Virus record (IMG/VR): IMGVR_UViG_3300031251_000002
Span: 62,001 to 126,000 of that record
Source of the DNA: a virus
DNA: 64,000 bases
Strand: one strand, 5' to 3'
A program made the translations under genes and the position numbers. The notes under the pieces are model-generated. The model was given only the letters and a program-made list of their open reading frames with translations, did not search any database and was not told the DNA's origin. Of this stretch, positions 6,063 to 61,917 are shown in pieces (position 1 is the first letter of the stretch; the number at the start of each line of letters is the position of its first letter).

Positions 6063-6836
6063 ATGTCTAATTTCGACGGCTTCTACGAACACATCCTCGT
6101 TCTGCCGGAACAGGAGTGGAGAAACCAGCTTCGTGAGAACGATGCGCTGGTAGGCCGTCTGCGCGATCACGGTGCCGCTGTCACACCTGACGGTGTTCTT
6201 GTAGTCGAGGCTGAAAGACTTTACCGGGTCACTCTCCTACTACGCGAACACAACCTTACGTGGCGCTTCGATCCTGCCTTTGCCGTCGAGACTGCCTTGA
6301 CCGAGAGCGACCCGGTTACCTTGATGAACAGGATGCTTTACGATCCAGAAGAACCCTATAGCTGGGAAGATCGAAAGCCTCTTAAGTGGTATCCAGAAGG
6401 CGAAGAGATCGAAGACGCCATGGACGACTACGATAAGTCCCTCCCTAACCACGCGGATCAGACGCTTCAGATGCCGCAGGATGGCGTGAAGGCGTCTAAC
6501 GTCGCAGCCAAGGCATTGGATCATGGCTGGCAGGATCCCTCTCTCGCTGCGGTCGGTGAGGGCAAGGAAGGCGCGAAGAAAATCAAGAACGAGGCCGGGA
6601 CCGAATCCACTGATCCGGACTTCAACCCGTGCCCTGCGTACATGGAAGGCTTCTGCCGCGTAGACGGACGAGTATGCCTGTACAACAAAGAAACCTTTGA
6701 GGACTGTCCGAAGTTCAACACTGCTCTGATCATTACCAAAGGCAACATGGCCATCCCTCCGGGTTCGGAGGACGATGAAGATTACGGCGGCGGCGCTTTT
6801 GGCGACAAAGACGATCCGCTAGCGGGTGAGAACTAG
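6063..6836 (+). CDS. Hypothetical protein with Cys motif and acidic tail
   Basis: A 257-residue protein. The ATG at 6063 is preferred over the GTG at 6057 because AAGGTGG lies just before it. The N-terminal 100 residues look globular; the middle is acidic and helical. Residues about 195-225 contain C-P-A-Y-M-E-G-F-C-R-V-D-G-R-V-C and a further C-P, a four-Cys knuckle that could bind zinc. The end is Asp/Gly-rich. No family is recognised. The stop overlaps the next GTG by one base (TAGTG). Confidence 0.5.
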   Translation: MSNFDGFYEHILVLPEQEWRNQLRENDALVGRLRDHGAAVTPDGVLVVEAERLYRVTLLLREHNLTWRFDPAFAVETALTESDPVTLMNRMLYDPEEPYSWEDRKPLKWYPEGEEIEDAMDDYDKSLPNHADQTLQMPQDGVKASNVAAKALDHGWQDPSLAAVGEGKEGAKKIKNEAGTESTDPDFNPCPAYMEGFCRVDGRVCLYNKETFEDCPKFNTALIITKGNMAIPPGSEDDEDYGGGAFGDKDDPLAGEN

Positions 6837-7243
6837 TGGCCAGCATTCTTACCAACGATGGTGAGCAGCTTCTTCTGGAATGCTTGCTGGTCGGTCGAGC
6901 CATCCCTGCTACCTATCAGGTTGGCCTGACCAACGCGGTTCTAGTAGTGACTGATAACCTAGCGACAGCCGTGGCTGGTGAACCGTCTGGGTTTGGGTAT
7001 GCCCGAATCACAATGGAGCAGAGCAACGTTGGCTGGGTTACTTCCGCGCTCGATTCCGGGCATTGGAAGATCACCGGGAAGAACGTTACGTGGACTGCCT
7101 CGGGCGGTGCCATCGGCCCGTTCCAGAACGTCTTCCTGACAGACGGGACCATCGTTGTCGGCTTCTGGAATACCACAGCAACCAGTATCCCTGACACTAC
7201 GTCATTTACCTTTACCCCAAGCATCAAAGAGACTTCAGCATGA
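6836..7243 (+). CDS. Beta-rich phage structural protein
   Basis: A 135-residue protein starting with GTG overlapping the upstream stop. It has the pattern V-G-L-T ... D-N-L-A-T ... G-E-P-S-G-F-G-Y-A-R-I-T ... V-T-W-T-A-S-G-G-A-I-G ... V-F-L-T-D-G-T, which I recognise as a common small phage virion protein type often annotated as fibre- or tail-associated. No catalytic motifs are seen. It shares general character, though not clear residue identity, with the 17887-18453 protein. Confidence 0.6.
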   Translation: MASILTNDGEQLLLECLLVGRAIPATYQVGLTNAVLVVTDNLATAVAGEPSGFGYARITMEQSNVGWVTSALDSGHWKITGKNVTWTASGGAIGPFQNVFLTDGTIVVGFWNTTATSIPDTTSFTFTPSIKETSA

Positions 7244-7488
7244 ACGGGGCTGCGGTGGTTGTCCGGACCAATCCGTGTGTCCATGGTGAGAGGAGCGCGG
7301 ATTTGTGTAGTTTTTGTCAGGACATCCATCCGCCTGATGCAACGATTCAGGACGAGATGAACGAATTGAGCAAACGTCAACTAATCATTACCGAGAAAGT
7401 GAGTCTGGCTATGCTGCTTCGACGCATTTTTTTAGGCAAGCGGACTGCGCGGGAGATTCCGCAAGGCTTTGGTAATGGAGGGCTTTGA
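7240..7488 (+). CDS. Hypothetical small protein with C/H motif
   Basis: An 82-residue protein with its ATG overlapping the previous stop (ATGA). Residues 13-26 contain C-V-H ... C-S-F-C and a following H, a small metal-binding pattern. The remainder is helical and basic. It overlaps the next gene by 14 bases. The function is unknown; its position places it in a tight operon with the XhlA-like and STAS genes. Confidence 0.5.
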   Translation: MNGAAVVVRTNPCVHGERSADLCSFCQDIHPPDATIQDEMNELSKRQLIITEKVSLAMLLRRIFLGKRTAREIPQGFGNGGL

Positions 7489-7708
7489 GCGTCAGGGAAC
7501 GGATAGCTGGAACGAGTGGCGCAAGTTCGTACTGAATGAACTGACTCGCTATAGCGGAGCTATCATCACCCTTGACGATAAGATCAACGAACTGAGAATC
7601 GAAGTGGCGATGTTGAAAGTAAAGGCATCCCTGTTCGGATCCTTGGCGGGTCTAGCAACTACGATTCTTCTCCACTTTCTGCTCTCGCTTGTTCCAGTAG
7701 CGAAATGA
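7475..7708 (+). CDS. XhlA-like small membrane protein
   Basis: A 77-residue protein from ATG 7475, preferred over the TTG at 7469 because AAGG sits at a good distance. An N-terminal amphipathic/coiled-coil half (W-R-K-F-V-L-N-E-L ... D-D-K-I-N-E-L-R-I-E-V-A-M-L-K-V-K) is followed by a single hydrophobic segment (residues about 53-74). This layout matches XhlA-type haemolysin/holin-accessory proteins of phages, which associate with the membrane during lysis. It overlaps the next gene by four bases, so an alternative is a membrane anchor for the STAS and RsbW-like pair. Confidence 0.6.
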   Translation: MEGFERQGTDSWNEWRKFVLNELTRYSGAIITLDDKINELRIEVAMLKVKASLFGSLAGLATTILLHFLLSLVPVAK

Positions 7709-8091
7709 CCATTCTGGACGATATCGGTCCGTACAGAAGCTCCTCTCCTTCTGTTGTAGAGATCAAGATCGAGCGAGGGATTTTGTGCGTCATGCTGAGT
7801 GGTGAGGTCACGCTGGTCGAAGCTTCGACCGTTAAGAAGATGGTTGCACAAGCAACGGACTCTTCGCTCAAGCCGACTGGCGTCATTCTGGACTTGACCA
7901 AAGCGGGCCACATCTACAGCCCAGCGCTGGGCCGGTTACTGTACCTCCGCAGTCTTTCAGTTCCGGTAACCATTGTTGCTTCACCGGTTCATGTTGCGCT
8001 GCTAGAGAGCCTTGGTCTGACTGCGGTATTCAAGCTGTCTACCACTGTAACAGATGCGATTGCTTATCTGAGGAAACCAGATGCAGTTTGA
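7705..8091 (+). CDS. STAS-domain protein (anti-sigma-antagonist-like), degenerate phospho-site
   Basis: A 128-residue protein. Residues 18-118 fit the STAS fold: V-V-E-I-K-I-E-R-G-I-L ... S-G-E-V-T ... G-V-I-L-D-L-T (59-65) ... V-T-I-V-A-S, and H-V-A-L-L-E-S-L-G-L-T-A-V-F. In SpoIIAA/RsbV the loop after the D-L strand reads D-S-S-G-x-G with a phosphorylated Ser. Here it reads I-Y-S72-P73-A-L-G, so the usual phospho-Ser position is a Pro. STAS proteins of this type bind an anti-sigma kinase; the next gene overlaps by 11 bases and resembles one. The N-terminal 17 residues are extra. Domain call fairly sure; target unknown. Confidence 0.75.
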   Translation: MTILDDIGPYRSSSPSVVEIKIERGILCVMLSGEVTLVEASTVKKMVAQATDSSLKPTGVILDLTKAGHIYSPALGRLLYLRSLSVPVTIVASPVHVALLESLGLTAVFKLSTTVTDAIAYLRKPDAV

Positions 8092-18532: not shown

Positions 18533-19495
18533 ATGGCGGTTAGTTATTTCATTGCCCCGCCGGGGGTTTCTTTTGGTGACTCCACCTTAGGAAACACCGC
18601 TGGTGACACGGGGACAGTCGGGGGCCGACTCGTCCTTGCCGGTGGCAATAACATAACCCTGAGCGGCTCGTCCTCGGGCGCGTCACTAACCCTGACGATT
18701 TCGGGGCCGAACGGCGGGGGTGCAGGTGTTTCGACACTTGGCAACACGCTAGGCGCGACCGGAACTGTCGGTGGCCAGCTAGTCTTTGCTGGTGGTAGCA
18801 ACATCACGCTGAGCCAGTCTACGAATGGCAACTCAGCAACCATCACAATCCTAGGGGTCAACCCTTCGGCTGGCACTCAGACAGCCGGTATCTCCAACCT
18901 AGGTAACACGCTTGGCACCTCCGGTGTCATCACCGGTTCGGCCATTGAACTAGTCTTTGCGGGTGGTAACAACATTACGTTGAGCCAGAGTCTCAACGGT
19001 AGCTCGGCCACGATCACAGTTATCGGTCCGACTATCGCCTCATCTTTGACAGCAATCAACCTTTCGGCAGGTACGACAAGTAACAACCTATCTGCCTTCG
19101 TTCTGAGTAACTCAAACAACATCAGTTTTGGTCTCAACGGGTCAACGATCACAGCGATAGTAACCGTTGCCTCCAGTCTGACGGCGATCAATGTTTCGGC
19201 AGGTACGACCAGTAACAATCTCTCGGCTCTCAGTTTCAACAACGCTAACGGGGTCACCTTTGGACTCAATGCCTCGACAATCACCGCTTCGGTCGCTGCT
19301 CAGTCAAACCAGACTCTCGGCATGTATGCCATTGGGACTACGGCAGGGGCGGCGTCATCAACAACTATGGATGCGCGTAGCATCTCGTTCTCTGCATTTG
19401 GACCAATGAGTTTAGGCTTTTCAGCATCGTCGGTTTTGTTGTCGCTTGATGGCGCACTGTATAGCCCGATGCATGCATTTTTAGGAGGCATCTAA
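18533..19495 (+). CDS. Repeat-built fibre protein 1
   Basis: A 320-residue protein. It has three copies of repeat A (x-S-T-L-G-N-T-x-G-x-T-G-x-V-G-G-x-L-V-F-A-G-G-N-N-I-T-L-S; residues about 15-150), then two copies of repeat B (S-L-T-A-I-N-x-S-A-G-T-T-S-N-N-L-S-A ... F-G-L-N-x-S-T-I-T; residues about 165-255), then a unique C-terminal segment ending M-H-A-F-L-G-G-I. Repeats of this kind are typical of phage tail fibres or adhesins. The two later fibre genes use the same units. The stop overlaps the next ATG. Confidence 0.7.
   Translation: MAVSYFIAPPGVSFGDSTLGNTAGDTGTVGGRLVLAGGNNITLSGSSSGASLTLTISGPNGGGAGVSTLGNTLGATGTVGGQLVFAGGSNITLSQSTNGNSATITILGVNPSAGTQTAGISNLGNTLGTSGVITGSAIELVFAGGNNITLSQSLNGSSATITVIGPTIASSLTAINLSAGTTSNNLSAFVLSNSNNISFGLNGSTITAIVTVASSLTAINVSAGTTSNNLSALSFNNANGVTFGLNASTITASVAAQSNQTLGMYAIGTTAGAASSTTMDARSISFSAFGPMSLGFSASSVLLSLDGALYSPMHAFLGGI
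18724..18753 (+). repeat. 30-bp exact repeat, copy 1 (partner at 20844)
   Basis: Thirty identical bases, beginning AGGTGTTTCGAC and ending ACGCTAGG, occur here in fibre 1 and again at 20844-20873 in fibre 2, both coding for the start of a repeat-A unit. The sequences diverge on the right side immediately after. Confidence 0.85.
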
Positions 19496-19920
19496 TGCCG
19501 TTCACGCAGAACATCAACCCCACGTTTCCCAAGCAGCCACAGAACGGGAAGATCCAGATCCTCAACGGAACTGGAACAGCGAACGTCACGGTCTACACCG
19601 CTGGCGCGAGCGGCACCAAGGTGGTTGCGATCCTAGTCTCCAGTACGGACACCTCGCCCCGCGATGTCCAGATCAAGGTTACCAACGGCGGCACCGACTA
19701 CGTTTTGGGCACCAAGACCATTCCCGCCAACTCGGGAACTGCTGCCGGAACTGCCGCAGTGAACCTTCTTGACCCGAACGTAATCGTCGGTCTTCCGCTA
19801 GATAGTGACGGCAACCCGTTCATCTATCTGATCTCAGGGGACACCTTGACCGCTGCCGCGCTGACTACAGTGACTTCGGCTAAGGCAATCAACATCAACG
19901 CGGTTGTGGCTGACTTCTAA
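19495..19920 (+). CDS. Small fibre-associated protein, paralogue of 21972
   Basis: A 141-residue protein with TAATG overlap. It aligns along nearly all its length with the 140-residue protein at 21972: T-V/F-Y-T-A ... G-x-K-V/I ... S-S/T-T-D-T-S ... V-x-x-G-G-T-D-Y-x-x-G-T ... T-A-A-V-x-x-L ... D-S-x-G-x-x-Y-L ... T-S-x-K-x-I-x-I. Each follows a repeat-built fibre gene, so they may be fibre adaptors, chaperones or connector subunits. The fold looks like a beta-sandwich. No known name is recognised. Confidence 0.65.
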   Translation: MPFTQNINPTFPKQPQNGKIQILNGTGTANVTVYTAGASGTKVVAILVSSTDTSPRDVQIKVTNGGTDYVLGTKTIPANSGTAAGTAAVNLLDPNVIVGLPLDSDGNPFIYLISGDTLTAAALTTVTSAKAININAVVADF

Positions 19921-19941
19921 AGTCTAGATAGAGAGTTAAAA

Positions 19942-21963
19942 ATGGCTGATTTCCCTCTTCCGGGCCAACGCCCGACAACCCCTGCGATTCGGTCCATCGC
20001 AGTCAGCGGAAACACGCTCGGAACCACCATTTCTGTCCTTCACCGTTTCTTGCCGATTAACGCAACGGGACAGATTAGCGCGGGATTCAGCAACGGTTCG
20101 CTGTTGCTGTCCGTCCCGTCAATGGGAGTTTCAGCCGGTACAACCTCCGCATCGCTAGCGGCAGTCACGTTTGCTAACGGTAATGGTGTCAGCTTCGGGC
20201 TGAATGGATCCACCGTTACCGCAAGCATTGCGACCTCGCTGACCAACTTCAACATCTCCGCCGGTACAACTTCTAACAACCTATCGGCGTTGACGTTCGC
20301 CAACGGTAACAACGTCTCCTTCGGTCTGAACAACTCGACGCTCACCGCATCGGTTGCAACGTCGCTGACCAACATCAATTTCTCGGCAGGTACGACCTCG
20401 GCTAACCTGTCAGCGCTAACGTTCTCCAACTCTAACGGCATCAGCTTCGGACTGAACGCGGGTACGGTTACCGCTTCGGTTAACGCCATTGCAAACATCA
20501 ACGTCAGCGCCGGTACGACCTCCAACAACCTGACGCAGATTACTTTCAGCAACGCGAACAACGTCAGCTTCGGTCTCAACGCCTCGACCCTCACGGCTTC
20601 TATCGCTACCTCGCTGACCGCGATCAACCTGTCAGCCGGTACGACTTCCAACAACCTATCGGCGTTCACGCTCTCCAACAGCAACGGCCTGAGCTTCGGC
20701 TTGAACGGGTCTACCATTACCGGTAGCTACACCGTCCCGGTTGTGTCCAACGCTATTCAAAGCGTTTCTAGCGCGACCAACTCAGGAACTGGAGTTTCTC
20801 AGTTCGCTGCTCATGACCACGTTCACGCTGGAGTCGGCCCGGAAGGTGTTTCGACACTTGGCAACACGCTAGGAAATACCGGCGTGTTGATGGGTCGAGT
20901 TGTCTGGGCCGGTGGCAACAACATCACCCTGTCCGTCTCCTCGTCTAACAACAACGCTCAGACCATCACGATCATTGGTCCGACCATCGCTTCCTCGCTG
21001 ACCAACATCAACCTCTCAGCAGGAACAACCTCCAACAACCTCTCGGCGTTCACCCTGAGCAACTCCAACGGAGTCTCGTTCGGCTTGAACGGCAGCACGG
21101 TTACCGCTTCTATCGCTACCTCACTGACAGCCATCAACCTGTCGGCTGGTACGACGAGTAACAACCTGTCAGCGTTCACCATGAGCAACGCTAACAACGT
21201 TTCGTTCGGGCTGAACGGTTCGGTCATCACAGCTACTGCAACGGTTGCGACCAGCTTGACCAACATCAACTTCTCGGCTGGCACGACCTCCAACAACCTG
21301 TCAGCGATCACGTTCAGCAACTCCAACGGAGTGTCGTTCGGACTGAACGCCAGCACCGTGACGGCTTCTATTGCTACCTCGCTCACGGCGATCAACCTCT
21401 CGGCAGGTACAACCTCTAACAACCTGTCTGCGTTCACCATGAGCAACGCTAACAACGTGAGCTTCGGGTTGAACGGGTCAGTGATTACAGCTAGCGCGAC
21501 CGTAGCTTCGTCACTGACGGCGGTTAACATCTCGGCAGGTACGACTAGTAACAACCTGTCAGCGTTCACGTTCAGCAACGCCAACAACGTCAGCTTTGGA
21601 TTGAACGCTTCTACGATTACTGCATCAATCGCTACCAGCCTGACAGCCATCAACATCTCGGCAGGAACAACCTCAGGTAACCTGAGCGCCTTCACGTTCA
21701 GCAACGCAAACAGCATCACCTTTGGTTTGAATGCCTCTACGATCACGGCCAGCTTCTCGCAGTCAGTTCAGACGCAGGGGTTTGTCAACAGCATTTCCGT
21801 CCTTGGAAACACGGCTGGAACCGTCTCGGCTGGAACCGGTTTCTTGGCTCTGGCAGGTGGCAATAACATTACACTTTCAGGGTCTACGGCTGCTGGCAGC
21901 ATGACTCTTTCGATAGTTGGTAATGAGATTCAGTTCAATTACGCCTTCCTCGGCGGCGTGTAA
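19942..21963 (+). CDS. Repeat-built fibre protein 2 (eleven repeat-B units)
   Basis: A 673-residue protein after TAGAGAGTT and a short spacer. It consists of five repeat-B units of about 42 residues (from residue 60), a middle segment with D-H-V-H-A-G-V and one repeat A (residues about 270-345), six more repeat-B units (to about 605), and a C-terminal repeat-A-like end finishing N-Y-A-F-L-G-G-V. Each B unit has the form S-L-T-x-I-N-x-S-A-G-T-T-S-N-N-L-S-A-x-T ending F-G-L-N-x-S-x-x-T-A-S. It is probably an extended trimeric fibre shaft; the HxH motif may bind metal. Confidence 0.7.
   Translation: MADFPLPGQRPTTPAIRSIAVSGNTLGTTISVLHRFLPINATGQISAGFSNGSLLLSVPSMGVSAGTTSASLAAVTFANGNGVSFGLNGSTVTASIATSLTNFNISAGTTSNNLSALTFANGNNVSFGLNNSTLTASVATSLTNINFSAGTTSANLSALTFSNSNGISFGLNAGTVTASVNAIANINVSAGTTSNNLTQITFSNANNVSFGLNASTLTASIATSLTAINLSAGTTSNNLSAFTLSNSNGLSFGLNGSTITGSYTVPVVSNAIQSVSSATNSGTGVSQFAAHDHVHAGVGPEGVSTLGNTLGNTGVLMGRVVWAGGNNITLSVSSSNNNAQTITIIGPTIASSLTNINLSAGTTSNNLSAFTLSNSNGVSFGLNGSTVTASIATSLTAINLSAGTTSNNLSAFTMSNANNVSFGLNGSVITATATVATSLTNINFSAGTTSNNLSAITFSNSNGVSFGLNASTVTASIATSLTAINLSAGTTSNNLSAFTMSNANNVSFGLNGSVITASATVASSLTAVNISAGTTSNNLSAFTFSNANNVSFGLNASTITASIATSLTAINISAGTTSGNLSAFTFSNANSITFGLNASTITASFSQSVQTQGFVNSISVLGNTAGTVSAGTGFLALAGGNNITLSGSTAAGSMTLSIVGNEIQFNYAFLGGV
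20122..20745 (+). repeat. Tandem coding repeat B, units 1-5
   Basis: Five consecutive units of about 126 bp, each encoding about 42 residues, similar but not identical at DNA level. They form the N-terminal shaft of fibre 2. The long open frame on the opposite strand across these repeats is a by-product of the codon pattern. Confidence 0.8.
20844..20873 (+). repeat. 30-bp exact repeat, copy 2 (partner at 18724)
   Basis: Identical over 30 bases to 18724-18753 in fibre 1. It encodes the first residues of the single internal repeat A of fibre 2 and could be a recombination or conversion point between the two genes. Confidence 0.85.
20989..21760 (+). repeat. Tandem coding repeat B, units 6-11
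   Basis: Six consecutive units of about 126 bp forming the C-terminal shaft of fibre 2. Units 7 and 9 are especially similar (both read F-T-M-S-N-A-N-N-V-S-F-G-L-N-G-S-V-I-T-A), which suggests a recent two-unit duplication. Confidence 0.8.
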
Positions 21964-21971
21964 GGTAATGT

Positions 21972-22394
21972 ATGGCAGCTAACCTTCCAATCTATCCGGC
22001 CTCTCTCGCTAACGCCGGGGTTGTACTGAACAACGCTTCCGGCACCTCGCTGGTGACTTTCTACACCGCTACCGGTAACGGCGCGAAGATTGAAAGCATA
22101 TCGGCTACCAGTACGGATACCTCTGCCCGTGTCTTGGTCGTCACCATCAACGTCGGTGGCACTGATTACACGGTTGGCACAGTCAACATTCCAATCACTG
22201 CGGGTACAGACGCGGCAGCGACTGCGGCGGTCAGCATCCTTGAGAACAACTCCATGATGCCGTGGGTTCGCAGGGACAGCAATGGACGCGCTTACCTGTA
22301 CCTCCAGTCGGGTAACATCCTGAAGTTCAACTCTCAGGTAACAATCACCTCAACAAAGGTGATTCACATCGTAGGACAAATCGGCGTCTACTAA
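21972..22394 (+). CDS. Small fibre-associated protein, paralogue of 19495
   Basis: A 140-residue protein starting just after fibre 2 (GTAATGT then ATG). It is clearly related to the 19495 protein throughout but is diverged (roughly one residue in three identical by eye). The C-terminus ends V-I-H-I-V-G-Q-I-G-V-Y. Its stop overlaps the start of fibre 3. The alternation fibre, small protein, fibre, small protein, fibre suggests the pair was duplicated as a unit. Confidence 0.65.
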   Translation: MAANLPIYPASLANAGVVLNNASGTSLVTFYTATGNGAKIESISATSTDTSARVLVVTINVGGTDYTVGTVNIPITAGTDAAATAAVSILENNSMMPWVRRDSNGRAYLYLQSGNILKFNSQVTITSTKVIHIVGQIGVY

Positions 22395-24526
22395 TGTTTG
22401 GTGAGAATGATCCAAAGGCCCGAGGCCAAGTAGACAGCATCTCTCTGGCGGGGAATACCGCCGGTAATACGAGTGCTGGCACAGGACCGCTGGTTCTAGC
22501 CGGTGGTAACAACATTACTCTGTCCGCGCAGACCGCCATTCAGGGCGGTATGTCGGTTACTGTCTCCGGGCCTACCGTCATCCTTGACGCGCAGGGCATC
22601 AGCACGGGCGGCAATACGGCTGGTCAGACCGGCCTTGTCAGCCAGCAGCTTGTCTTTGTCGGCGGCAACAACATCACCCTGTCCGGTAGCGTTAACGCTC
22701 AGTCGGCAACGATTACCATCTCTGCCGGTGGCGGTGGTGCGGTTAATATCAGCGCTGGAACGACAAGTAACAACTTAAACGCACTCACGTTCGCGGATAG
22801 CAATGGTTTGAGTTGGGGCCTGAACGCTTCAACGATAACCGTTAGCTACACCGTCCCCCCGGTAAACACTGCCAACACCGCGATCCAATCAGTTCAGGGT
22901 TTCGTTTCCGCTGGAACTATGACGAGCTATGCTCGGGCGGATCATGCTCATGCTGGTGTTGCTAAACTATTTTTTGGATCAAACACGAAATCTGGTGGTG
23001 GACCGCTAACGATTACGGGCGATCCGTACGTTTCGTTGTCGTTTGATACGGCTGTTAATCAGGTTACGATTGACTGGCTTGGTCAACAGGCCACTACAGT
23101 ATCGGCTGTTACGTCCGCAAACGTGCTTGGAACTGCATCCAGTTCGTTTGCTATGCAGGACCATCAACACGCAGGTGTTGGCCTTGCTGGCGTGTCCAAC
23201 ATCGGAAACACTCTGGGTAACACGGCTGTCCTCCCCGGTCAGGTTGTCTTTGCTGGTGGTAACAACATCACACTTTCGATGTCCACCAGCGCCAACAACA
23301 ACATGACGATCACCATCTCTGCTGCGAACGGCGGCGGGGCAGGGTACACGGCTGGAATGTCCACGCAAGGAAACACAGCCGGTAACACTGGCATGGTGAC
23401 TGGACAACTTCAGCTTGTAGGATCGAACAACCTGACGCTCTCTGGATCAACGAACGCCGGATCCATGACGATCACCATTTCCGGTCCGTCGGCTGGGGGC
23501 ATGGGCGTTTCGACGCTCGGCAACTCGGCTGGAACGACGGGCACCGTTGGTGGCCAGATGGTCATGGTGGCTTCAGGCGGAGTCACCCTATCTCAGTCCA
23601 CGAACGGAAACTCGGGAACGATCACAATCACTGTTACCCCGAACGCCACGGCCTCATGGTTTGAGCCAGAAATCTATGGCGGTACGACGACAGGAACACA
23701 GGCTAACGGAACTGTCTATGTTCGACCGTTCTATGTTAACAACTACATATCGGCATATCGCGGTCAGATGCTGATGCAGATGACCAGCCAGAGCAACACG
23801 ACGATGAGCTTCTCCGGATCTGTTTCTGGAGGAAATGCCTCGTCGGCATCTGGATCGTGGGGTCTAAGCGGATCACTTTATGTCATGTCCCGAATCAGCA
23901 CCGGCACGGACGCCCATAGCTCTTTGATTGGTACTTTCTTTTCTCAGACCTACACCATGAGCATGGGTATGTCTAACTCGGTTAGCTGGTCTACCAACGC
24001 CTCCTCCGCTTCAGTTTCATGGACGACGGGCGGCAAGATTGGTTTCCTAAGCTCGATTGACTCAGCGGGTGGCGTTACTTACGGCAACTCAAGCACCACT
24101 TCATCGAACAGCTTTTCAAGCACCAGCACGAACGCTCACAGCTTCAGTTCGTCGGCTACTGTCAGCTTTGCATCCCAGCACCTCAGCCAGATCCGACCAA
24201 TTTTCTTCCCGATGGGCACAGCCCTTACTCCGGGCGAGTATTGGTTGGCCCACATTCAATCGACAAACACTGGTAGCACTAACCAAGGGTTGCAACAGCA
24301 GTGTCAGATGAACTCGGTTGGCTTGGTTTACTACACGACGCAGATTGGAACCCAGTATCAGGAAGTCGGCAACTCCGTGACCATCGCATCGAGCAACCTC
24401 ATGTGGGGGCTTGGCTCCTATAGTTCGTCAGGTAACTTGACGGCTGTTAGTGGAATTCCAATCTCACAGATTTCAAACATGAGCGGTTATTCGCTGTTCT
24501 TCCAGTTGCTCGCACAGGTGAAGTAA
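22394..24526 (+). CDS. Repeat-built fibre protein 3 with unique C-terminal domain
   Basis: A 710-residue protein. Five repeat-A units are spread over residues 10-420, with one repeat B (about residue 115) and two D-H-x-H-A-G-V motifs (D-H-A-H, D-H-Q-H) in the segments between. From about residue 420 the protein changes to a unique Ser/Thr/Gly/Met-rich domain of nearly 290 residues (A-S-W-F-E-P-E-I-Y-G-G ... Y-S-L-F-F-Q-L-L-A-Q-V-K). That end is the most likely receptor-binding tip. Its stop overlaps the ATG of the LamG protein. Confidence 0.7.
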   Translation: MFGENDPKARGQVDSISLAGNTAGNTSAGTGPLVLAGGNNITLSAQTAIQGGMSVTVSGPTVILDAQGISTGGNTAGQTGLVSQQLVFVGGNNITLSGSVNAQSATITISAGGGGAVNISAGTTSNNLNALTFADSNGLSWGLNASTITVSYTVPPVNTANTAIQSVQGFVSAGTMTSYARADHAHAGVAKLFFGSNTKSGGGPLTITGDPYVSLSFDTAVNQVTIDWLGQQATTVSAVTSANVLGTASSSFAMQDHQHAGVGLAGVSNIGNTLGNTAVLPGQVVFAGGNNITLSMSTSANNNMTITISAANGGGAGYTAGMSTQGNTAGNTGMVTGQLQLVGSNNLTLSGSTNAGSMTITISGPSAGGMGVSTLGNSAGTTGTVGGQMVMVASGGVTLSQSTNGNSGTITITVTPNATASWFEPEIYGGTTTGTQANGTVYVRPFYVNNYISAYRGQMLMQMTSQSNTTMSFSGSVSGGNASSASGSWGLSGSLYVMSRISTGTDAHSSLIGTFFSQTYTMSMGMSNSVSWSTNASSASVSWTTGGKIGFLSSIDSAGGVTYGNSSTTSSNSFSSTSTNAHSFSSSATVSFASQHLSQIRPIFFPMGTALTPGEYWLAHIQSTNTGSTNQGLQQQCQMNSVGLVYYTTQIGTQYQEVGNSVTIASSNLMWGLGSYSSSGNLTAVSGIPISQISNMSGYSLFFQLLAQVK

Positions 24527-25200
24527 TGAGCGTCCAGATTAAAACTAATCTTGGCGGGCTTGGCTATCCCGCTGCTCTTGCTAACTACACTCCAATGAGC
24601 TTTTCCCTTTGGGTCCGCTTCATCACGTTCAATGGGACTTCGCAGCCCATGTTCGACATGGAAGACGCCGTGGACTCGCAGTTCAGCGCCTATATGGGCA
24701 ATGGGACCGCCGGTCCTCACCTGATGGACATGTCTACACGGGAAGCCGGGACAGATTTTCTCTTTGGCCCAAACGTTGCTCTCGGAGATTGGCATTGCTA
24801 TCAAGGAGCAGTCAACGATGCCTCTGATGGCGGTGTTTACGGGTATATCGACAGCGCCCAGTTTTTCAACACGTACACACCTATTGCGGTTAGCGGAACA
24901 GTTAACATCAACGCTGTTGGTGCCTACGGTAGCGGAGCTTCGTGGTGCAATGCCTACGTCTCACAATGTCGAGTCTGGACGGCTAAGTTGACATGGGAAG
25001 AGTTGGCTATTGAGCGCACCTCAGCAACGCATGTTAAAACAGCTAACTTATATGCCTCATGGCCGTTGTTAACGAACTTGCTTGACACTTCTGGGAACGG
25101 ACGGTCCTTGGTTCCAACTGGCACCATCTCGACAGACTACGCATTTGACTCGTCAACAGAGCCGCCTTTGTTTCCGCGCAGTCTTTGGTTGACACGGTAA
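24526..25200 (+). CDS. LamG/concanavalin-like lectin protein
   Basis: A 224-residue protein. The pattern S-F-S-L-W-V-R-F ... M-F-D-M-E-D ... W-H-C-Y-Q-G-A-V-N-D-A ... V-Y-G-Y-I-D-S ... Q-C-R-V-W-T-A-K-L-T-W-E-E-L ... L-Y-A-S-W-P-L-L ... D-T-S-G-N-G-R matches laminin-G-like jelly-roll domains, which bind sugars or proteins. It fills the entire protein. Its place after fibre 3 suggests a glycan-binding subunit at the fibre tip or a separate short fibre. Confidence 0.75.
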   Translation: MSVQIKTNLGGLGYPAALANYTPMSFSLWVRFITFNGTSQPMFDMEDAVDSQFSAYMGNGTAGPHLMDMSTREAGTDFLFGPNVALGDWHCYQGAVNDASDGGVYGYIDSAQFFNTYTPIAVSGTVNINAVGAYGSGASWCNAYVSQCRVWTAKLTWEELAIERTSATHVKTANLYASWPLLTNLLDTSGNGRSLVPTGTISTDYAFDSSTEPPLFPRSLWLTR

Positions 25201-25236: not shown

Positions 25237-25968
25237 ATGAGTAAAGCGGGCAAGCTAACACAAGAAGCCATTGGGTTTCACAACGCCAATATCGCAGCCG
25301 CTCAGACGCGGTTGGTTCAGGGCAGCAGCTACAAAGACGTATCCACGATCTGTGTTGTGCCAACGCGGGGGATGATCTCCGCCAAGGTGGTCCAATACTG
25401 GATGGGGATGATGAGTCCGATGAACCAGAAGTTCATGCGGATTTTCATGAGCGGGCTAGAGGTGGGCGAGGCGTACGAACAGGCAGTGGATCAGATCCTC
25501 GCGCACCCAGACCTGTCGAAGTGGAAGTACATCCTAACGCTTGAGGAGGACAACTGTCCGCCTCCGGACGGGCTGCTTAAGCTAATCGAGTCCATTGAGA
25601 TGCACAAGCTCGATGCGGTTGGTGGCCTTTACTGGACAAAAGGCGAGGGCGGTCAGCCGATGATCTACGGCAACCCCGGTGAGATGCCAAGAAACTTCAT
25701 CCCGCAGGTTCCGATTCAGAACGCGGTTCAGCCGTGTAACGGTCTTGGAATGGGGTTCACGCTCTTCCGGATGGACATGTTCAAGTCCGGCAAGATCGCT
25801 CGTCCATTCTTCAAGACCGTGCAGGAGTACAAGCCCTACGTCGGCGGTTCGACGTTCACTCAGGACTTGTTCTTTTTCAACAAGGCGTGTGATCAAGGGT
25901 TCAAGTTCGCTTCAGACAATCGAGTTCTCGTTGGGCACTATGATGCCCCTAATGATTTCATGTGGTGA
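25237..25968 (+). CDS. Glycosyltransferase (GT-A type)
   Basis: A 243-residue protein. It has the GT-A-type core: I-C-V-V-P-T-R-G near residue 36, W-K-Y-I-L-T-L-E-E-D105-N-C-P-P-P-D-G-L-L near residues 97-113 (acidic E-D-N replacing the usual D-x-D), A-V-G-G-L-Y-W-T, then N-G-L-G-M-G-F-T-L-F-R. This family transfers a sugar from a nucleotide donor. In phages such enzymes modify DNA, host envelope sugars or virion proteins. Its place inside the fibre cassette, next to a methyltransferase, favours virion or surface sugars. The donor and acceptor are unknown. Confidence 0.75.
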   Translation: MSKAGKLTQEAIGFHNANIAAAQTRLVQGSSYKDVSTICVVPTRGMISAKVVQYWMGMMSPMNQKFMRIFMSGLEVGEAYEQAVDQILAHPDLSKWKYILTLEEDNCPPPDGLLKLIESIEMHKLDAVGGLYWTKGEGGQPMIYGNPGEMPRNFIPQVPIQNAVQPCNGLGMGFTLFRMDMFKSGKIARPFFKTVQEYKPYVGGSTFTQDLFFFNKACDQGFKFASDNRVLVGHYDAPNDFMW

Positions 25969-25984
25969 GTAACAAGGAGTGTAT

Positions 25985-26557
25985 GTGGCTAAAAGTAAAG
26001 CAAAGCTAAAAGCGGTCTCCTCGGTAGTCGAAGCTGAACCCCTGAAGATCGACCTCGGCTGCGGGCAAAACAAGAAGCCCGGATTCACGGGGATTGATAT
26101 CGCTGCGGCTCCGGGCGTGGACATCGTTCACGACCTGATGGTGATGCCGTGGCCGTTTAAGAACGACTCGGTTGGCGAGGTCTTCTCGTCCCACACGATT
26201 GAGCATTTCACCGGCCCCCAGCGCGTCAAGTTCATGGAAGAGCTTTGGCGGGTGATGCAGGTGGGCGCAAACGCGACGTTCGTCTTCCCGTACTACAGTT
26301 CTTCACGGGCAATTCAGGATCCGTTTCACGCATGGCCCCCGTTGTGCGAAGCCTCCTTCCTGTACTTCAACAAGGGCTGGATGATCGCCAACAAGCTAGA
26401 CCACTACAACATCAAGTGTGACTTCGACTTCACCTACGGTTACGCCTTCAGCGGCCAGTTAGTAAATCGCCCTCAGGAGATGCGGGACTTTGCTATTCGC
26501 AACTACATCAATGCGGTTGATGACCTCCATGTAACACTTACTAAGAGGGCCGGATGA
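25985..26557 (+). CDS. SAM-dependent methyltransferase (class I)
   Basis: A 190-residue protein. GTG 25985 is preferred over GTG 25979 because AAGGAG ends five bases before it. Motif I is L-K-I-D-L-G25-C-G-Q-N-K-K-P-G-F, followed by G-I-D-I (acidic residue of the ribose site), V-D-I-V-H-D-L, and then S-S-H-T-I-E-H-F and E-L-W-R-V-M, as in class I methyltransferases of the Methyltransf_11 type, which often methylate sugars or small molecules. It is coupled in position to the glycosyltransferase, so O-methylation of a sugar is one possibility. It overlaps the next gene (ATGA). Confidence 0.8.
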   Translation: MAKSKAKLKAVSSVVEAEPLKIDLGCGQNKKPGFTGIDIAAAPGVDIVHDLMVMPWPFKNDSVGEVFSSHTIEHFTGPQRVKFMEELWRVMQVGANATFVFPYYSSSRAIQDPFHAWPPLCEASFLYFNKGWMIANKLDHYNIKCDFDFTYGYAFSGQLVNRPQEMRDFAIRNYINAVDDLHVTLTKRAG

Positions 26558-57018: not shown

Positions 57019-60000
57019 ATGGCAATTCCTGCAAGTCCTGATCTAATCACCGTTCTGACCTCAGACGGTGATGTTGATCTATTTCTGCCGTCCGACATCT
57101 ATCGGTATGACTTCGATAACCGTCCGCTTCGTAACCTCATTCTGAATGACGAGAGTCTTCAGACCGGGGCGAACGAGGCGATTACAGAGACATTCAACTC
57201 CCGCTATCCGGGTGTTGACTGGCTGACAACGACAGGTGCGCGAGGCCCATACCTAAACCTTAAGGCTCGTCTTGACGACATGGATTCGTCCGTCAAGAAG
57301 AACATCTACAGCCTTAATCAAGAACTGGCTGCTCGCTACCGGAGTCAGTACGCCTCGGGCTTCTTCCTGAAGACAGGAGAGGTCTACGATGCCAACGTAT
57401 TTGACGTAGTGAGCGCGTCCAGCACCCACATCCCGTTCGGTGCGATCTGCGTCCCGGATGCGAACCCGAATGACGTTAGCTCCAACCTCACATCTTCGAT
57501 TCCTGCCAACTCGGTTTGGATCTCGACTCATGAGGGAACACGCTCGCCCTTTGTGGCTAAGCCGATTGAGGCGATGCTGGGCGGTTTCCATGTCCGTCTG
57601 TTCAACGAGTCCGCGCATGGCGCAGCCACATCTGGCTTCACCAACGGCGTGTCGATCCTGTTCGATGCAGCCCCAAGCAGCGGTCAGCGCTTCGATCTCG
57701 CCTTCCTAGAGTTCTGGTTCGCCCCGGTTGACGGCGGGCTGGCCAACACAGGTGGCACCGACTCCTTCTACGAGTACGGCGCTGTAGACTCCAACGCTTC
57801 ACGGTCTGTTGACCAGTCAGCCGCAGCGGTTCAGGGAACCGTGTGGTTCGATCCGACTACGATTGGCAACTACATTCAGTTGCGCCATCGGATCCGCGTC
57901 GTATCGAACATTGATTACGTCAACAAGCCATTCGGCATCAACGATGCGTCTGTCGTTGCACAGGGCGGTGCCGGTTCCCCGGTCGGTGGAAAGACATTCG
58001 TCAACGGCCTGTCGGTAATCAGCGATCCGGCGATCTGGGTTGCTGGAAGTGGCTCAGGCGGCGACAAGACAGCCCTCGGCACCTCGGATGGGTACGTGTA
58101 CGCGATCCCGATGATGATCGTTTCGCGTAAGAACACGGCTGCGTGGAGCCTCTCTAATCAGAACGGCGGTCAGGCATCCAACTTCGGTGCTGGCGGACGA
58201 CCGGATGGTTACACGCACCAGAAGTTCTCGCGTGGCGACATTCTTGACATCCGTCCTCGCGCTTTCATGGATCGTACGAGCCTGATTGACGCGACTGAGG
58301 AATCATTCGACAAGCTGCTTCGTGGACGCCTTTTGACGGCCATGAGCCAGATGTCCTACGAAGCCGGTTCGGATCTGTTCACCCAGTCACACCTAGGAAC
58401 GTTTACGGATCCAGTCGGGATGTACGGAACCGAGCTTCTGGAGATGAACCAGCTTGGTACGACGAACACCGCGCACACGCATCCGATTCGTGACTTTTTG
58501 GACAACGGTTCGCTCGCCGTCGCTAGGCCAACGGGTTTGCGTCGTGTCTTCAGCCCAAGTCGGGATACGCAGGTTCAACCGTTCCACATCAACTTGAATG
58601 GTGGAGCAACGACCAATGCAGATTTCGTGACATGGGCACCTCCGGTCATTACCTTGTTTGCAGCCGGTGTTTCGGCTCTCGGTCCTGCGAACGCAGTGAT
58701 CGAAAGCGTTCCCATCATGTCGTGGCGCACCACGCACCTGCCGGTTGTTACCATCGGTAATTGGTCAGGAATCGGCACCAATCAAGCAACCGCGACGGTT
58801 GATACGGGCGGGGTTGGTTATGACGCGACCGACACGATTGACGGGGCAGTGAACATCCGCTGGCCACAGTCAACCGGTCTGCGCCACTCGCCTACGCGGA
58901 TTGACTATCAAGACTGGACCGCTGGCGCGAACGGATCTGGCAGCATCACCCCGTCCATCCGGGCTACCGGGTTGAACGGCGGTACGGGTGGCGCTCAGGG
59001 TCCGACCGGCCTCTTTGTTTCAACAGACGGCCACATCTACGTCTGCGATACTAGCAATCACCGGATTCAAATCTATGCTCCGCCCGCACCGACTGATACG
59101 ACGTTCACCATCGTAGGTCAGTTCCCCGGCTCAATCGGCACGTTGCCGGGTCCGGGATCTGACAACGCGCATCTAAATTCCCCACAGGCTGTGGCGGTTG
59201 ATGGTTCTGGCAACATCTATGTTGCTGACACCAACAATCATCGGGTTGTGAAGCTGTCCAATGCGCTTCCGCTACCGGCCTACGTGAGCCAGTTCGGCAC
59301 TGGCAGCATTGGAACAGGAACGACACATCTCAACACCCCACAGGGCGTTGTGGCTGGCGTCTCCAACGTCTACATCTCTGACACGAACAACTATCGTGTA
59401 GTGAAGCTTGACGGTTCATTGACCTTCGTAGACCAGTTCGGCGTAACCGGTGTACCGGGTTCGGATGCGACCCACTGCTTGAGTCCGCAGCGCCTCACGA
59501 CTGGCATTGGTGGTTCGGGTGGTCGCCTCATCGTGGCTGACCAGACCCGCGTTCTAGTTTTGAACTCTGCCCCCTCACCGATGACGCTTGATCGGGTTCT
59601 TGTGGGTGGTCAGGGCTATGCAGACGGCACAGCCATCACCGCTTTGAACGCCATCAAGTCCATGGCTATCGTAGAAGACAGCAGCGGTAACAAGTACGTC
59701 AGCGGCGGTGGAACCTCAGCCATCTTCAAATTCAACTCGTCGTGGGTTCTTCAGGCCAAGTTTGGTGCGGGTACGAATGACCTGACAAGCTTGTGGTACG
59801 GCCCTGCGGATCCTAATTTCAACACGCATTGCGGGCTTACCGGGAACATCGTTGTTGATTCGGCAAACGGCTTTGTCTACGTAGCTGACAACACCTACGG
59901 CGTCTCCCCCGGCTATGCGCGAGTCCTAGTTCTTAATATTGCTGACTTGACGTATCACAATGAGCTTTTGCTTTCGACGCCGCGTCCGTGGATGGACGGC

Positions 60001-61917
60001 TCGTCAGTTCTCCCGAAGTCCCCGACCCCGAACTACGTGCAGCCGTCCTGCAACATCGCTATGGATCTGGTCAACACGGAGATTTACATCACTCTGGACA
60101 CGCTGGCATGCGTAGAAAAGTGGGACACCTCCCCGAGCGCGGGCAACCCGAATCTCTGGGCATACGAGACCAAGTTTGGCAATGGAACGCACATCACGGA
60201 ATGGCCGTACTATCAAGGCTGGCGCAGTCCTGCTGACGATGCTCACAGCTTCTCGTTCCCCAAGACGGTCGCTGTCTCTCCCGATGGTTCGACCCTGTAC
60301 GTGGGCGATCAGAATTTCCGAGCGCTTAACGACGGCCACCACGCAAGCCGTATCGTTAGCCTGACATGCAACACGGTCCCGATGACCATGAACGCATGGT
60401 TTGGCGACCTGAACGTAGCTGACACCTCTTGCGACCTCGGCTCAACCACTGACACGCCGTACTTCCAGTCCGTCAGCGGGCTGGTGGCGCAGGGAACCCG
60501 CGTTTACGCAACCGATGCGTACGCGAACCCGCCGCTTCTCGTTGTTCTTGATGTCGCTGGCTGGACGGGAGTGACCCGAGTTACCGCGCCGTTCAAGGAA
60601 GCGATTACAGACACGACATGGACCTCAGCCAGCATCCCGGCTAGCGGTGTAAGCAGCAACTACCTGACGGTCAACGGGGGCAACTACAACGCTGTTCTAG
60701 GCGACTCGACGGTGCTGTACATCAACCCCGGTTTCTCGACCCAGCGCTGGGCTATCGACAACAGTGTTGTAACCGGCGCAAGTGTCGATAACCCGTTACG
60801 CGCTTTCCTGACCCTCGGAACCGGGATCGCGGTGCAGAAGCCGATTCAAAGCACCCAGCCGTTTGTCGGTGTCAGCGGTGTCTGGTACGACGCTTCAGTT
60901 ACCCCAAACCGACTGGTGATCTCGGATCAAGTGACCAACGAAGTCTATGTCGTTTCGGTAGACATTGACACAAACTCGCTCCCAGCAGACTTCACGCTTC
61001 TGGGCGAGGCGGGCACCGCAGGTGTCTCAGGCTTCGGCTTCGGTGGCTGGGCACATCCAACGTCGGTCGCCATGAAGCAGTTGAGTGGAATCGACTACTT
61101 CTACTACACGGACTTCTACAACGGCTCGCTCCAGCGGTCATCGCCGTACTTTGCCTTCATCGAACGCGGAACCGGGCGGATCGAATGTCTTCTGCCGCCA
61201 CCGGCAGGAACGACACTCCGGGTCTACTCGCGGTTCACCCCCTATCAGGGTGTCTACGTGCGGCCTGACTTCCTTGGCAACTCCGCGCACAACTCGACGG
61301 CCTACGCCCAGTCCTTGTTTGCTTCGCGCCTAGTCGTGAAGCCGTACAAGATGCTGGCAACGACCCTTGGCCGGGTAGGTATCGACTCCGGAAACCTGAT
61401 CACTGAGACCGCCTACTCTTCGCCGCTATCCCATCTTCCGCTTCCTCTGGGAACGACGACGGAGTACGCATGGCAGGGGGATCGCCTTCAGTTCATCGGG
61501 GACATGATCTCTCCGTCCAGCCTAGTGGTCCTGCCGCTGGTTCAGCTTGGCTCACAGCCTCAGGAGTGGGACACCGACTCGGAGTCCTTCTACGAGCGCT
61601 CAACCCGCATCGGTCGGCTGGAGGATCCAATCCTTAACAACGGCCACGGTGGAGCGCCCAGCTACACGCTGGCATCCAACGAGTTCCCGGTTGTTCAGTC
61701 CTTCTCGCTGTCCAACGTGGTTCCACACATCAACTACACATGGGGCACGGTTGATTACTATGGTGAGCTTCTCTTGTTCGTTCGCGGTGACTTCAATCTA
61801 AGTAACAAGAACGTCGTTGGTCCTAGGATCAATCCGTTCGTTCAGACAAACACTGTTGTTGAGCTATACCGGATGAATGGAAACCCCTTCACTCGGATGG
61901 TTGAGACTAGAGGCTAA
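57019..61917 (+). CDS. Giant structural protein with NHL-repeat propeller
   Basis: A 1632-residue protein, the largest in the window. The N-terminus reads D-G-D-V-D-L-F-L-P-S-D-I-Y-R-Y-D-F-D-N-R-P-L-R-N-L, a pattern of large phage baseplate/fibre proteins. Residues about 655-1110 contain NHL repeats (G-L-F-V-S-T-D-G-H-I-Y-V-C-D-T-S-N-H-R; A-V-D-G-S-G-N-I-Y-V-A-D-T-N-N-H-R; N-V-Y-I-S-D-T-N-N-Y-R), a six-bladed-type beta-propeller that binds partners or ligands. The last 500 residues are beta-rich. Possibly a fibre network or baseplate periphery protein. It lies at the end of the virion gene set. Confidence 0.7.
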   Translation: MAIPASPDLITVLTSDGDVDLFLPSDIYRYDFDNRPLRNLILNDESLQTGANEAITETFNSRYPGVDWLTTTGARGPYLNLKARLDDMDSSVKKNIYSLNQELAARYRSQYASGFFLKTGEVYDANVFDVVSASSTHIPFGAICVPDANPNDVSSNLTSSIPANSVWISTHEGTRSPFVAKPIEAMLGGFHVRLFNESAHGAATSGFTNGVSILFDAAPSSGQRFDLAFLEFWFAPVDGGLANTGGTDSFYEYGAVDSNASRSVDQSAAAVQGTVWFDPTTIGNYIQLRHRIRVVSNIDYVNKPFGINDASVVAQGGAGSPVGGKTFVNGLSVISDPAIWVAGSGSGGDKTALGTSDGYVYAIPMMIVSRKNTAAWSLSNQNGGQASNFGAGGRPDGYTHQKFSRGDILDIRPRAFMDRTSLIDATEESFDKLLRGRLLTAMSQMSYEAGSDLFTQSHLGTFTDPVGMYGTELLEMNQLGTTNTAHTHPIRDFLDNGSLAVARPTGLRRVFSPSRDTQVQPFHINLNGGATTNADFVTWAPPVITLFAAGVSALGPANAVIESVPIMSWRTTHLPVVTIGNWSGIGTNQATATVDTGGVGYDATDTIDGAVNIRWPQSTGLRHSPTRIDYQDWTAGANGSGSITPSIRATGLNGGTGGAQGPTGLFVSTDGHIYVCDTSNHRIQIYAPPAPTDTTFTIVGQFPGSIGTLPGPGSDNAHLNSPQAVAVDGSGNIYVADTNNHRVVKLSNALPLPAYVSQFGTGSIGTGTTHLNTPQGVVAGVSNVYISDTNNYRVVKLDGSLTFVDQFGVTGVPGSDATHCLSPQRLTTGIGGSGGRLIVADQTRVLVLNSAPSPMTLDRVLVGGQGYADGTAITALNAIKSMAIVEDSSGNKYVSGGGTSAIFKFNSSWVLQAKFGAGTNDLTSLWYGPADPNFNTHCGLTGNIVVDSANGFVYVADNTYGVSPGYARVLVLNIADLTYHNELLLSTPRPWMDGSSVLPKSPTPNYVQPSCNIAMDLVNTEIYITLDTLACVEKWDTSPSAGNPNLWAYETKFGNGTHITEWPYYQGWRSPADDAHSFSFPKTVAVSPDGSTLYVGDQNFRALNDGHHASRIVSLTCNTVPMTMNAWFGDLNVADTSCDLGSTTDTPYFQSVSGLVAQGTRVYATDAYANPPLLVVLDVAGWTGVTRVTAPFKEAITDTTWTSASIPASGVSSNYLTVNGGNYNAVLGDSTVLYINPGFSTQRWAIDNSVVTGASVDNPLRAFLTLGTGIAVQKPIQSTQPFVGVSGVWYDASVTPNRLVISDQVTNEVYVVSVDIDTNSLPADFTLLGEAGTAGVSGFGFGGWAHPTSVAMKQLSGIDYFYYTDFYNGSLQRSSPYFAFIERGTGRIECLLPPPAGTTLRVYSRFTPYQGVYVRPDFLGNSAHNSTAYAQSLFASRLVVKPYKMLATTLGRVGIDSGNLITETAYSSPLSHLPLPLGTTTEYAWQGDRLQFIGDMISPSSLVVLPLVQLGSQPQEWDTDSESFYERSTRIGRLEDPILNNGHGGAPSYTLASNEFPVVQSFSLSNVVPHINYTWGTVDYYGELLLFVRGDFNLSNKNVVGPRINPFVQTNTVVELYRMNGNPFTRMVETRG

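Follow-up and report, generated by a model that had tools for sequence, protein, structure and literature searches.

A phage repeat-fibre gene cluster that may encode one serial fibre jointed by small jelly-roll proteins

The window analyzed here is a 64,000-nucleotide stretch of DNA (bases 62001-126000 of the 166,450-base virus record IMGVR_UViG_3300031251_000002). The gene content around its fibre cluster is that of a contractile-tailed phage. The cluster consists of three fibre genes built from shared repeat units (F1, F2, and F3) and two small genes (S1 and S2) that alternate with them in the order F1-S1-F2-S2-F3. All five genes are tightly packed on the + strand (Table 1), and one-base stop/start overlaps were found at F1/S1, S2/F3, and between F3 and the gene that follows it. 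Based on sequence comparison, we propose with modest confidence that the locus encodes one serial fibre in which the S proteins act as joints.

Profiles built from the repeat units were used to search F1-F3. The composition given in a first-pass annotation (three A and two B units in F1, two A and 11 B in F2, five A and one B in F3) was recovered exactly, which makes all three genes members of the A/B-repeat fibres. The A and B units scored 59-76 bits, far above chance, and the repeats are visible at the DNA level as well, with up to 82% identity over 250 nt. The repeats grow by tandem duplication, as seen in two adjacent blocks of F2 that are 82% identical. F2 also has a degenerate N-terminal A unit in addition to its two A and 11 B units. 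A degenerate unit closing F1 (about residues 264-308) had been overlooked, as had a third unit type, H ('AIQSV..GT...FA..DHxHAGV'), which occurs once in F2 and twice in F3. A and B could perhaps be distant versions of one unit.

The three fibres had been credited with unique C-termini. This claim did not hold, and a binding end on each of the three fibres is not supported. F1 ends one degenerate unit past its last B unit and F2 ends 13 residues past its last A unit; they share the ending AFLGG(I/V), and neither has a C-terminal domain. The last ~296 residues of F3 form a domain that is divergent from, but homologous to, the C-terminal domain found on most other A/B fibres (hhalign 97.4%, E 1e-11; profile score 37 bits, with the best of 200 shuffles at -18). 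The structure predicted for this domain was too weak (pLDDT 64), and searching with it yielded no meaningful structural match.

A search of viral contigs with the A-unit profile gave 159 places, of which 75 loci were kept. The fibres of these uncultured phages (loci L022-L096; also MW202524) have the A, B, and H units and the F3-type end domain seen in the window, with about 3 to >20 units in mixed order. They are mostly encoded by one gene that includes the end domain, whereas F1 and F2 of the window end in tails. Repeat numbers had been put forward as something to compare among relatives, and they vary: unit number and order differ among phages with 71-82% identical end domains (L039/L044, L068/L087, L060/L072; for example ABBAABABA in L039 and ABBBBBBBAABA in L044). 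In near-identical contigs (96-100%) repeat number is fixed, but the relatives as a whole do not show the uniform number and order that would have spoken against the earlier suggestion. Shaft length thus changes over moderate evolutionary distance. It had been suggested that the cluster is a unit that duplicates and recombines to vary host range. Tandem duplication and the variable number and order of repeats bear out a part of this suggestion. Duplication of a fibre together with its small gene to vary host range is not supported, and a fibre-plus-small-gene unit as a general feature of A/B fibres is ruled out, since S was found in 0/50 of the other A/B-fibre records searched.

S1 and S2 are paralogues, as had been noted earlier (40% identity over 128 aa, E 3e-22), and they are the only S genes in the genome. 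No Pfam, PHROG, or NCBIfam family was identified for either protein, with weak unrelated matches at most. A tblastn search of S1 in phage and plasmid records gave no match, and a PDB sequence search with S gave chance-level matches only. The AlphaFold model of S1 is a confident beta sandwich (pLDDT 85.6, pTM 0.75). Foldseek against PDB gave weak jelly-roll matches to a pentameric phage capsid protein, the KHP40 trimeric cement protein, and a tail-fibre chain of phage 7-7-1, whose long fibre terminates in a triple jelly roll (PMC12796354); weak lectin and carbohydrate-binding module matches were also obtained. The better fold matches were many unnamed virion proteins of uncultured phages. The S family is characterized by a ~140-aa jelly-roll, a D-S-[DN]-G-N-P loop, and a position between a protein bearing a C-terminal tail and a protein bearing an N-terminal motif (both described below); S1 and S2 have these features.

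Viral contigs yielded relatives of S, as did a small number of bacterial genomes, mainly those of Mucilaginibacter and other Bacteroidota. These relatives are not adjacent to A/B fibres, and their upstream proteins are diverse (collagen-like fibres, short beta proteins, and others). At two loci the protein before S starts with a known family, the anchor domain of tail-fibre families (phrog_24607/1980) in L102 and a baseplate-connector N-terminus (phrog_677) in L139; upstream is therefore taken as virion-proximal. The Bacteroidota set (L014-L020, L112-L115, L117, L173-L177) has a collagen-like fibre ending KIFKKSNY(S/R/K), then S, then a LamG protein starting MASRNGLNPKIRGxKGVGxGRALPAPFGFGNG. 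The ends are very conserved in this set, and the adhesin bodies are variable. In L171 a TPR-like gene lies between the tail-bearing protein and S (6427-7818).

In most S loci the protein directly before S ends in a tail with the consensus [H/Y/Q]Ax[L/F]GG[I/L/V]. The upstream gene could be read for 30 distinct non-Bacteroidota S genes; in 26 of these cases it ends in a GG-hydrophobic tail, versus 10 of 2380 control open reading frames, at least 6 of which are members of such gene chains themselves. Only the ends are common to the S partners, because the bodies flanking S fall into unrelated clusters (16 upstream, 23 downstream). The motif idea was fixed before the later S loci were collected, which makes these the fairer test; most of the later S genes outside Bacteroidota had the tail.

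Several observations bear on whether the tail is a feature of the protein or of the Shine-Dalgarno site of S. Tails without GGAGG occur in F2 of the window and in L008, L009, L128, L137, and L171, and the S start lies 53-105 nt past the tail in L008, L009, and L010. In 23 unrelated upstream bodies, the residue four positions before GG is His in 10 (background 1.7%, p 2e-12) and His, Tyr, or Gln in 16, with varied codons. Among pairs with a one-base stop/start overlap, the tail is present in 11/11 before S versus 3/149 others, and all three of the latter lie in S loci; other overlapping pairs containing GGAGG show no such tail. Because of the GGAGG-free tails, the varied codons, and the overlap controls, the tail is best regarded as a protein motif that also hosts the S ribosome site.

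The protein after S also has a conserved end. In most loci it starts MF(L/I)xPGSRAR, M(A/G)DFxPxPGSR, or MFGE-SPK-PG and relatives, in front of bodies that include Gly-rich, collar-like, and repeat-type proteins and, in the Bacteroidota set, LamG adhesins. The class of this N-terminal peptide tracks the S tree, with 6 changes versus a shuffled mean of 17.7 (0/200 shuffles as low). Since the bodies behind the motif are unrelated, this match is kept at the ends. Tail and N-motif are present on one protein in F2 of the window and in L127, L140, and L109. The chain in L127 has a first protein ending HAFMGGV, a second starting MADFTPTPGSR and ending RQAVLGGI, then S, then a third protein starting MGDFDPNIGSR.

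Using a simple heuristic, not SignalP, we predicted Sec signal peptides on several of the tail-bearing, S, and downstream proteins (L013, L103/L161, L106-L108, L141, L157-L166, L171); all three proteins have one in six distinct loci. In L103, L157, and L171 the PG.R peptide lies C-terminal to the predicted cleavage site, marked here by a slash (SA/QFLMPGNRAR, QA/QFISPGER, SA/QQSPMPGERS). Export of fibre parts would not be expected in a tailed phage.

Because F1 and F2 are without an end domain, S is missing from other A/B-fibre records, and S travels with the tail and the N-peptide, we propose that S1 and S2 are joints in one serial fibre. It is consistent with this proposal that A/B fibres elsewhere share a single terminal domain, present also on F3, and that F1 and F2 end in the tail. 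The proposal is also favoured by the agreement of N-peptide class with the S tree, the proteins that carry both end motifs, the anchor-type N-termini before S in L102 and L139, the place of the PG.R peptide relative to signal-peptide cleavage, and the modelled fold of S with its weak cement-protein and tail-fibre matches. F1 and F2 would be repeat-built shaft segments ending in the short [H/Y/Q]Ax[L/F]GG-hydrophobic tail, and each jelly-roll joint would seat the tail of the preceding segment and the N-peptide (PGSR or PK..G type) of the next. F3, with its end domain, would be the distal and probably host-contacting part. We infer that the tail and the N-peptide physically bind S, that the fibre is trimeric, that the segments run from proximal to distal in the proposed order, and that F3 has a receptor role. 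Duplication of A/B units would alter shaft length with both ends untouched, and segments would be swappable while their end peptides match the joint.

The proposed arrangement resembles known multi-protein fibres. In the anchor-branch complexes of Klebsiella phages, G7C, and K1-5, a proximal anchor docks fibres or spikes via short conserved N-terminal peptides, behind which enzyme or adhesin bodies are swapped (PMC6872550). The PGSR and PK..G peptides after S are likewise short, conserved, and followed by unrelated bodies; in the window, however, docking would fall to a separate small jelly-roll protein that receives a C-terminal tail, in a linear chain. No Pfam or PHROG match to a T4gp10-like docking domain was detected in S, F1-F3, or the scanned upstream partners. 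The T4 long tail fibre (gp34-gp35-gp36-gp37) is built from serial proteins with small connectors at the joints, encoded in order from proximal to distal. A serial fibre with a small connector at its joints is what we propose here from the genes, but the segments in the window are A/B-repeat shafts with end peptides, and S has no PHROG, Pfam, or NCBIfam match that would indicate homology to gp35/gp36-type connectors. The locus thus appears to work like the anchor-branch complexes and the T4 long fibre, yet it fails the sequence tests for either.

A number of observations weigh against the serial fibre. The tail motif was first noticed in part of the data that were later counted (26/30). No clear tail precedes four non-Bacteroidota S genes (L097, L111, L134, L141), and Bacteroidota phages use another conserved end, KIFKKSNYS. 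The GG codons of the tail are mostly GGA-GGN and so are partly the Shine-Dalgarno site ~6 nt before the S start. The position of S2 in the S tree is weak, and linkage alone can make neighbouring genes co-vary. L127 and L109 each have a tail directly followed by an N-motif protein, with no intervening S; S is therefore not needed at every joint and may represent one of two means of linking segments. Of two DNA patterns for S-free junctions (tail, stop/start, N-motif), one matched only the L127 contig and the second matched nothing, which suggests that S-free links are rare or differently spaced.

One alternative, which we consider unlikely, concerns location and not the joint mechanism: the fibre may be a head or neck fibre or whisker, not a tail fibre. 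The cluster lies between the head-tail adaptor gene and the tail sheath gene, near the major capsid gene. Gene position alone is not decisive, though, and in L102 and L139 relatives of S follow tail-fibre or baseplate-connector N-termini.

The strongest rival on S function, which is slightly less likely still, is that S is a fibre-assembly chaperone or a permanent C-terminal cap (a Tfa-like role), with the tail as its recognition site and F1-F3 as separate fibres. Chaperone genes are commonly found directly 3' of fibre genes, and small genes for Tfa/gp38-type chaperones or adhesins sit right after the fibre gene. S always follows the tail-bearing gene, and the tail is strongly tied to S. This rival does not account for the conserved N-peptide of the next protein, the co-variation of that peptide with S clade or its position after signal-peptide cleavage sites, the double-ended F2, or the anchor-S-fibre order. 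Tfa/gp38 systems are not known to include a conserved peptide on the next protein, and no S gene follows F3, the one fibre of the three with a real end domain. Neither S1 nor S2 has a PHROG or Pfam match to tail-fibre-assembly families, beyond weak unrelated ones.

It is improbable that S is a small tip adhesin on F1 and F2 and that three independent fibres broaden host range, a reading near that of the first-pass annotation. Jelly-roll folds are found in adhesins, and the weak lectin and carbohydrate-binding module fold matches of S1 fit such a role. Against it, the variable, adhesin-like proteins at these loci are those encoded downstream (Gly-rich, collar-like, LamG), and S itself is well conserved; in L102 and L139 S comes immediately after short anchor proteins, and the N-peptides are left unexplained. 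Equally improbable is a plain structural operon in which the tail is a mere translation of the S Shine-Dalgarno site in a fixed overlap: the GGA-GGN codons make this partly true, but it is insufficient as the whole cause given the tails without GGAGG, the distant S starts, and the Ala as well as His/Tyr/Gln before GG, and the codon and overlap controls largely refute it.

The surroundings of the cluster offered several further observations. The LamG protein encoded directly after F3 is possibly a separate or extra tip or adhesin. On either side of the fibre cluster lie the members of two additional paralogue pairs, in matching order (16440-16961/26554-27342 and 16958-17878/27355-28674), which suggests a larger duplicated structural block. 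A possible glycosyltransferase gene and a methyltransferase-like gene lie 3' of the cluster at 25237-25968 and 25979-26557, and genes of these two kinds also flank the A/B fibre of MW202524 (L021). Modification of the Ser/Thr-rich fibres is possible. An NHL-repeat protein of 1632 aa is encoded in the tail/baseplate region of the window (57019-61917). A DNA search against phage isolates gave no match.

Table 1. Features of the fibre cluster and landmark genes in the window (positions are those of the window)
Feature	Position	Strand	Remarks
F1 fibre segment, 320 aa	18533-19495	+	A A A B B and a degenerate unit; C-terminal tail, without end domain
F1 C-terminal tail HAFLGGI	19472-19492	+	GGA GGC codons double as likely S1 Shine-Dalgarno site
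S1, small jelly-roll protein, 141 aa	19495-19920	+	Proposed F1-F2 joint
F2 fibre segment, 673 aa	19942-21963	+	11 B, 2 A, 1 H; N-motif at front, C-terminal tail at end
F2 N-motif MADFPLPGQRP	19942-19974	+	PGSR type, as after S in L098, L127, L140, L152
H unit of F2 (DHVHAGV)	20743-20850	+	
Two-B-unit block of F2, copy 1	20999-21248	+	Tandem duplicate, 82% identical to 21257-21506
Two-B-unit block of F2, copy 2	21257-21506	+	
F2 C-terminal tail YAFLGGV	21940-21960	+	Codons GGC GGC, so no GGAGG ribosome site
S2, paralogue of S1, 140 aa	21972-22394	+	Proposed F2-F3 joint
F3 terminal segment, 710 aa	22394-24526	+	5 A, 1 B, 2 H and C-terminal domain
F3 N-motif MFGENDPKARGQV	22394-22432	+	PK..G type, as after S in L104, L109, L124
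F3 stretch with two H units (DHAHAGV, DHQHAGV)	22871-23194	+	
F3 C-terminal domain	23636-24523	+	Homologous to common A/B-fibre end domain; sole end domain among F1-F3
Laminin-G/ConA-like lectin gene	24526-25200	+	One-base overlap with F3
Head maturation protease	9925		
Major capsid protein	11905		
Head-tail adaptor (neck gene)	13387		
Tail sheath	33231		
Baseplate wedge	52229		

A central question about phages is how host-recognition parts can be swapped while assembly is preserved, and the docking interfaces known so far are mostly specific to a phage group. The S loci tentatively point to a general plug-and-socket kit across unrelated tailed phages, in which an S adaptor would accept a C-terminal plug of the proximal part and an N-terminal plug of the distal part, fibre bodies and adhesins from any family would be exchangeable and shafts chainable in series, with one branch of the kit behind Sec signal peptides; we regard this generalization as plausible but as short of probable. 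A limited literature search found no description of the tail-joint-peptide set, which is not proof of novelty. For annotation, the pattern to look for is a ~140-aa protein encoded between an upstream gene ending HAx(L/F)GG(I/L/V) and a downstream gene with a PGSR- or PK..G-type start. If the proposal is true, it would give a function to a small gene family that is unnamed in Pfam, PHROGs, and NCBIfam, and would predict where the fibres of uncultured phages break into modules. The tail, joint, and peptide would then constitute a portable interface that recurs across unrelated fibre bodies.

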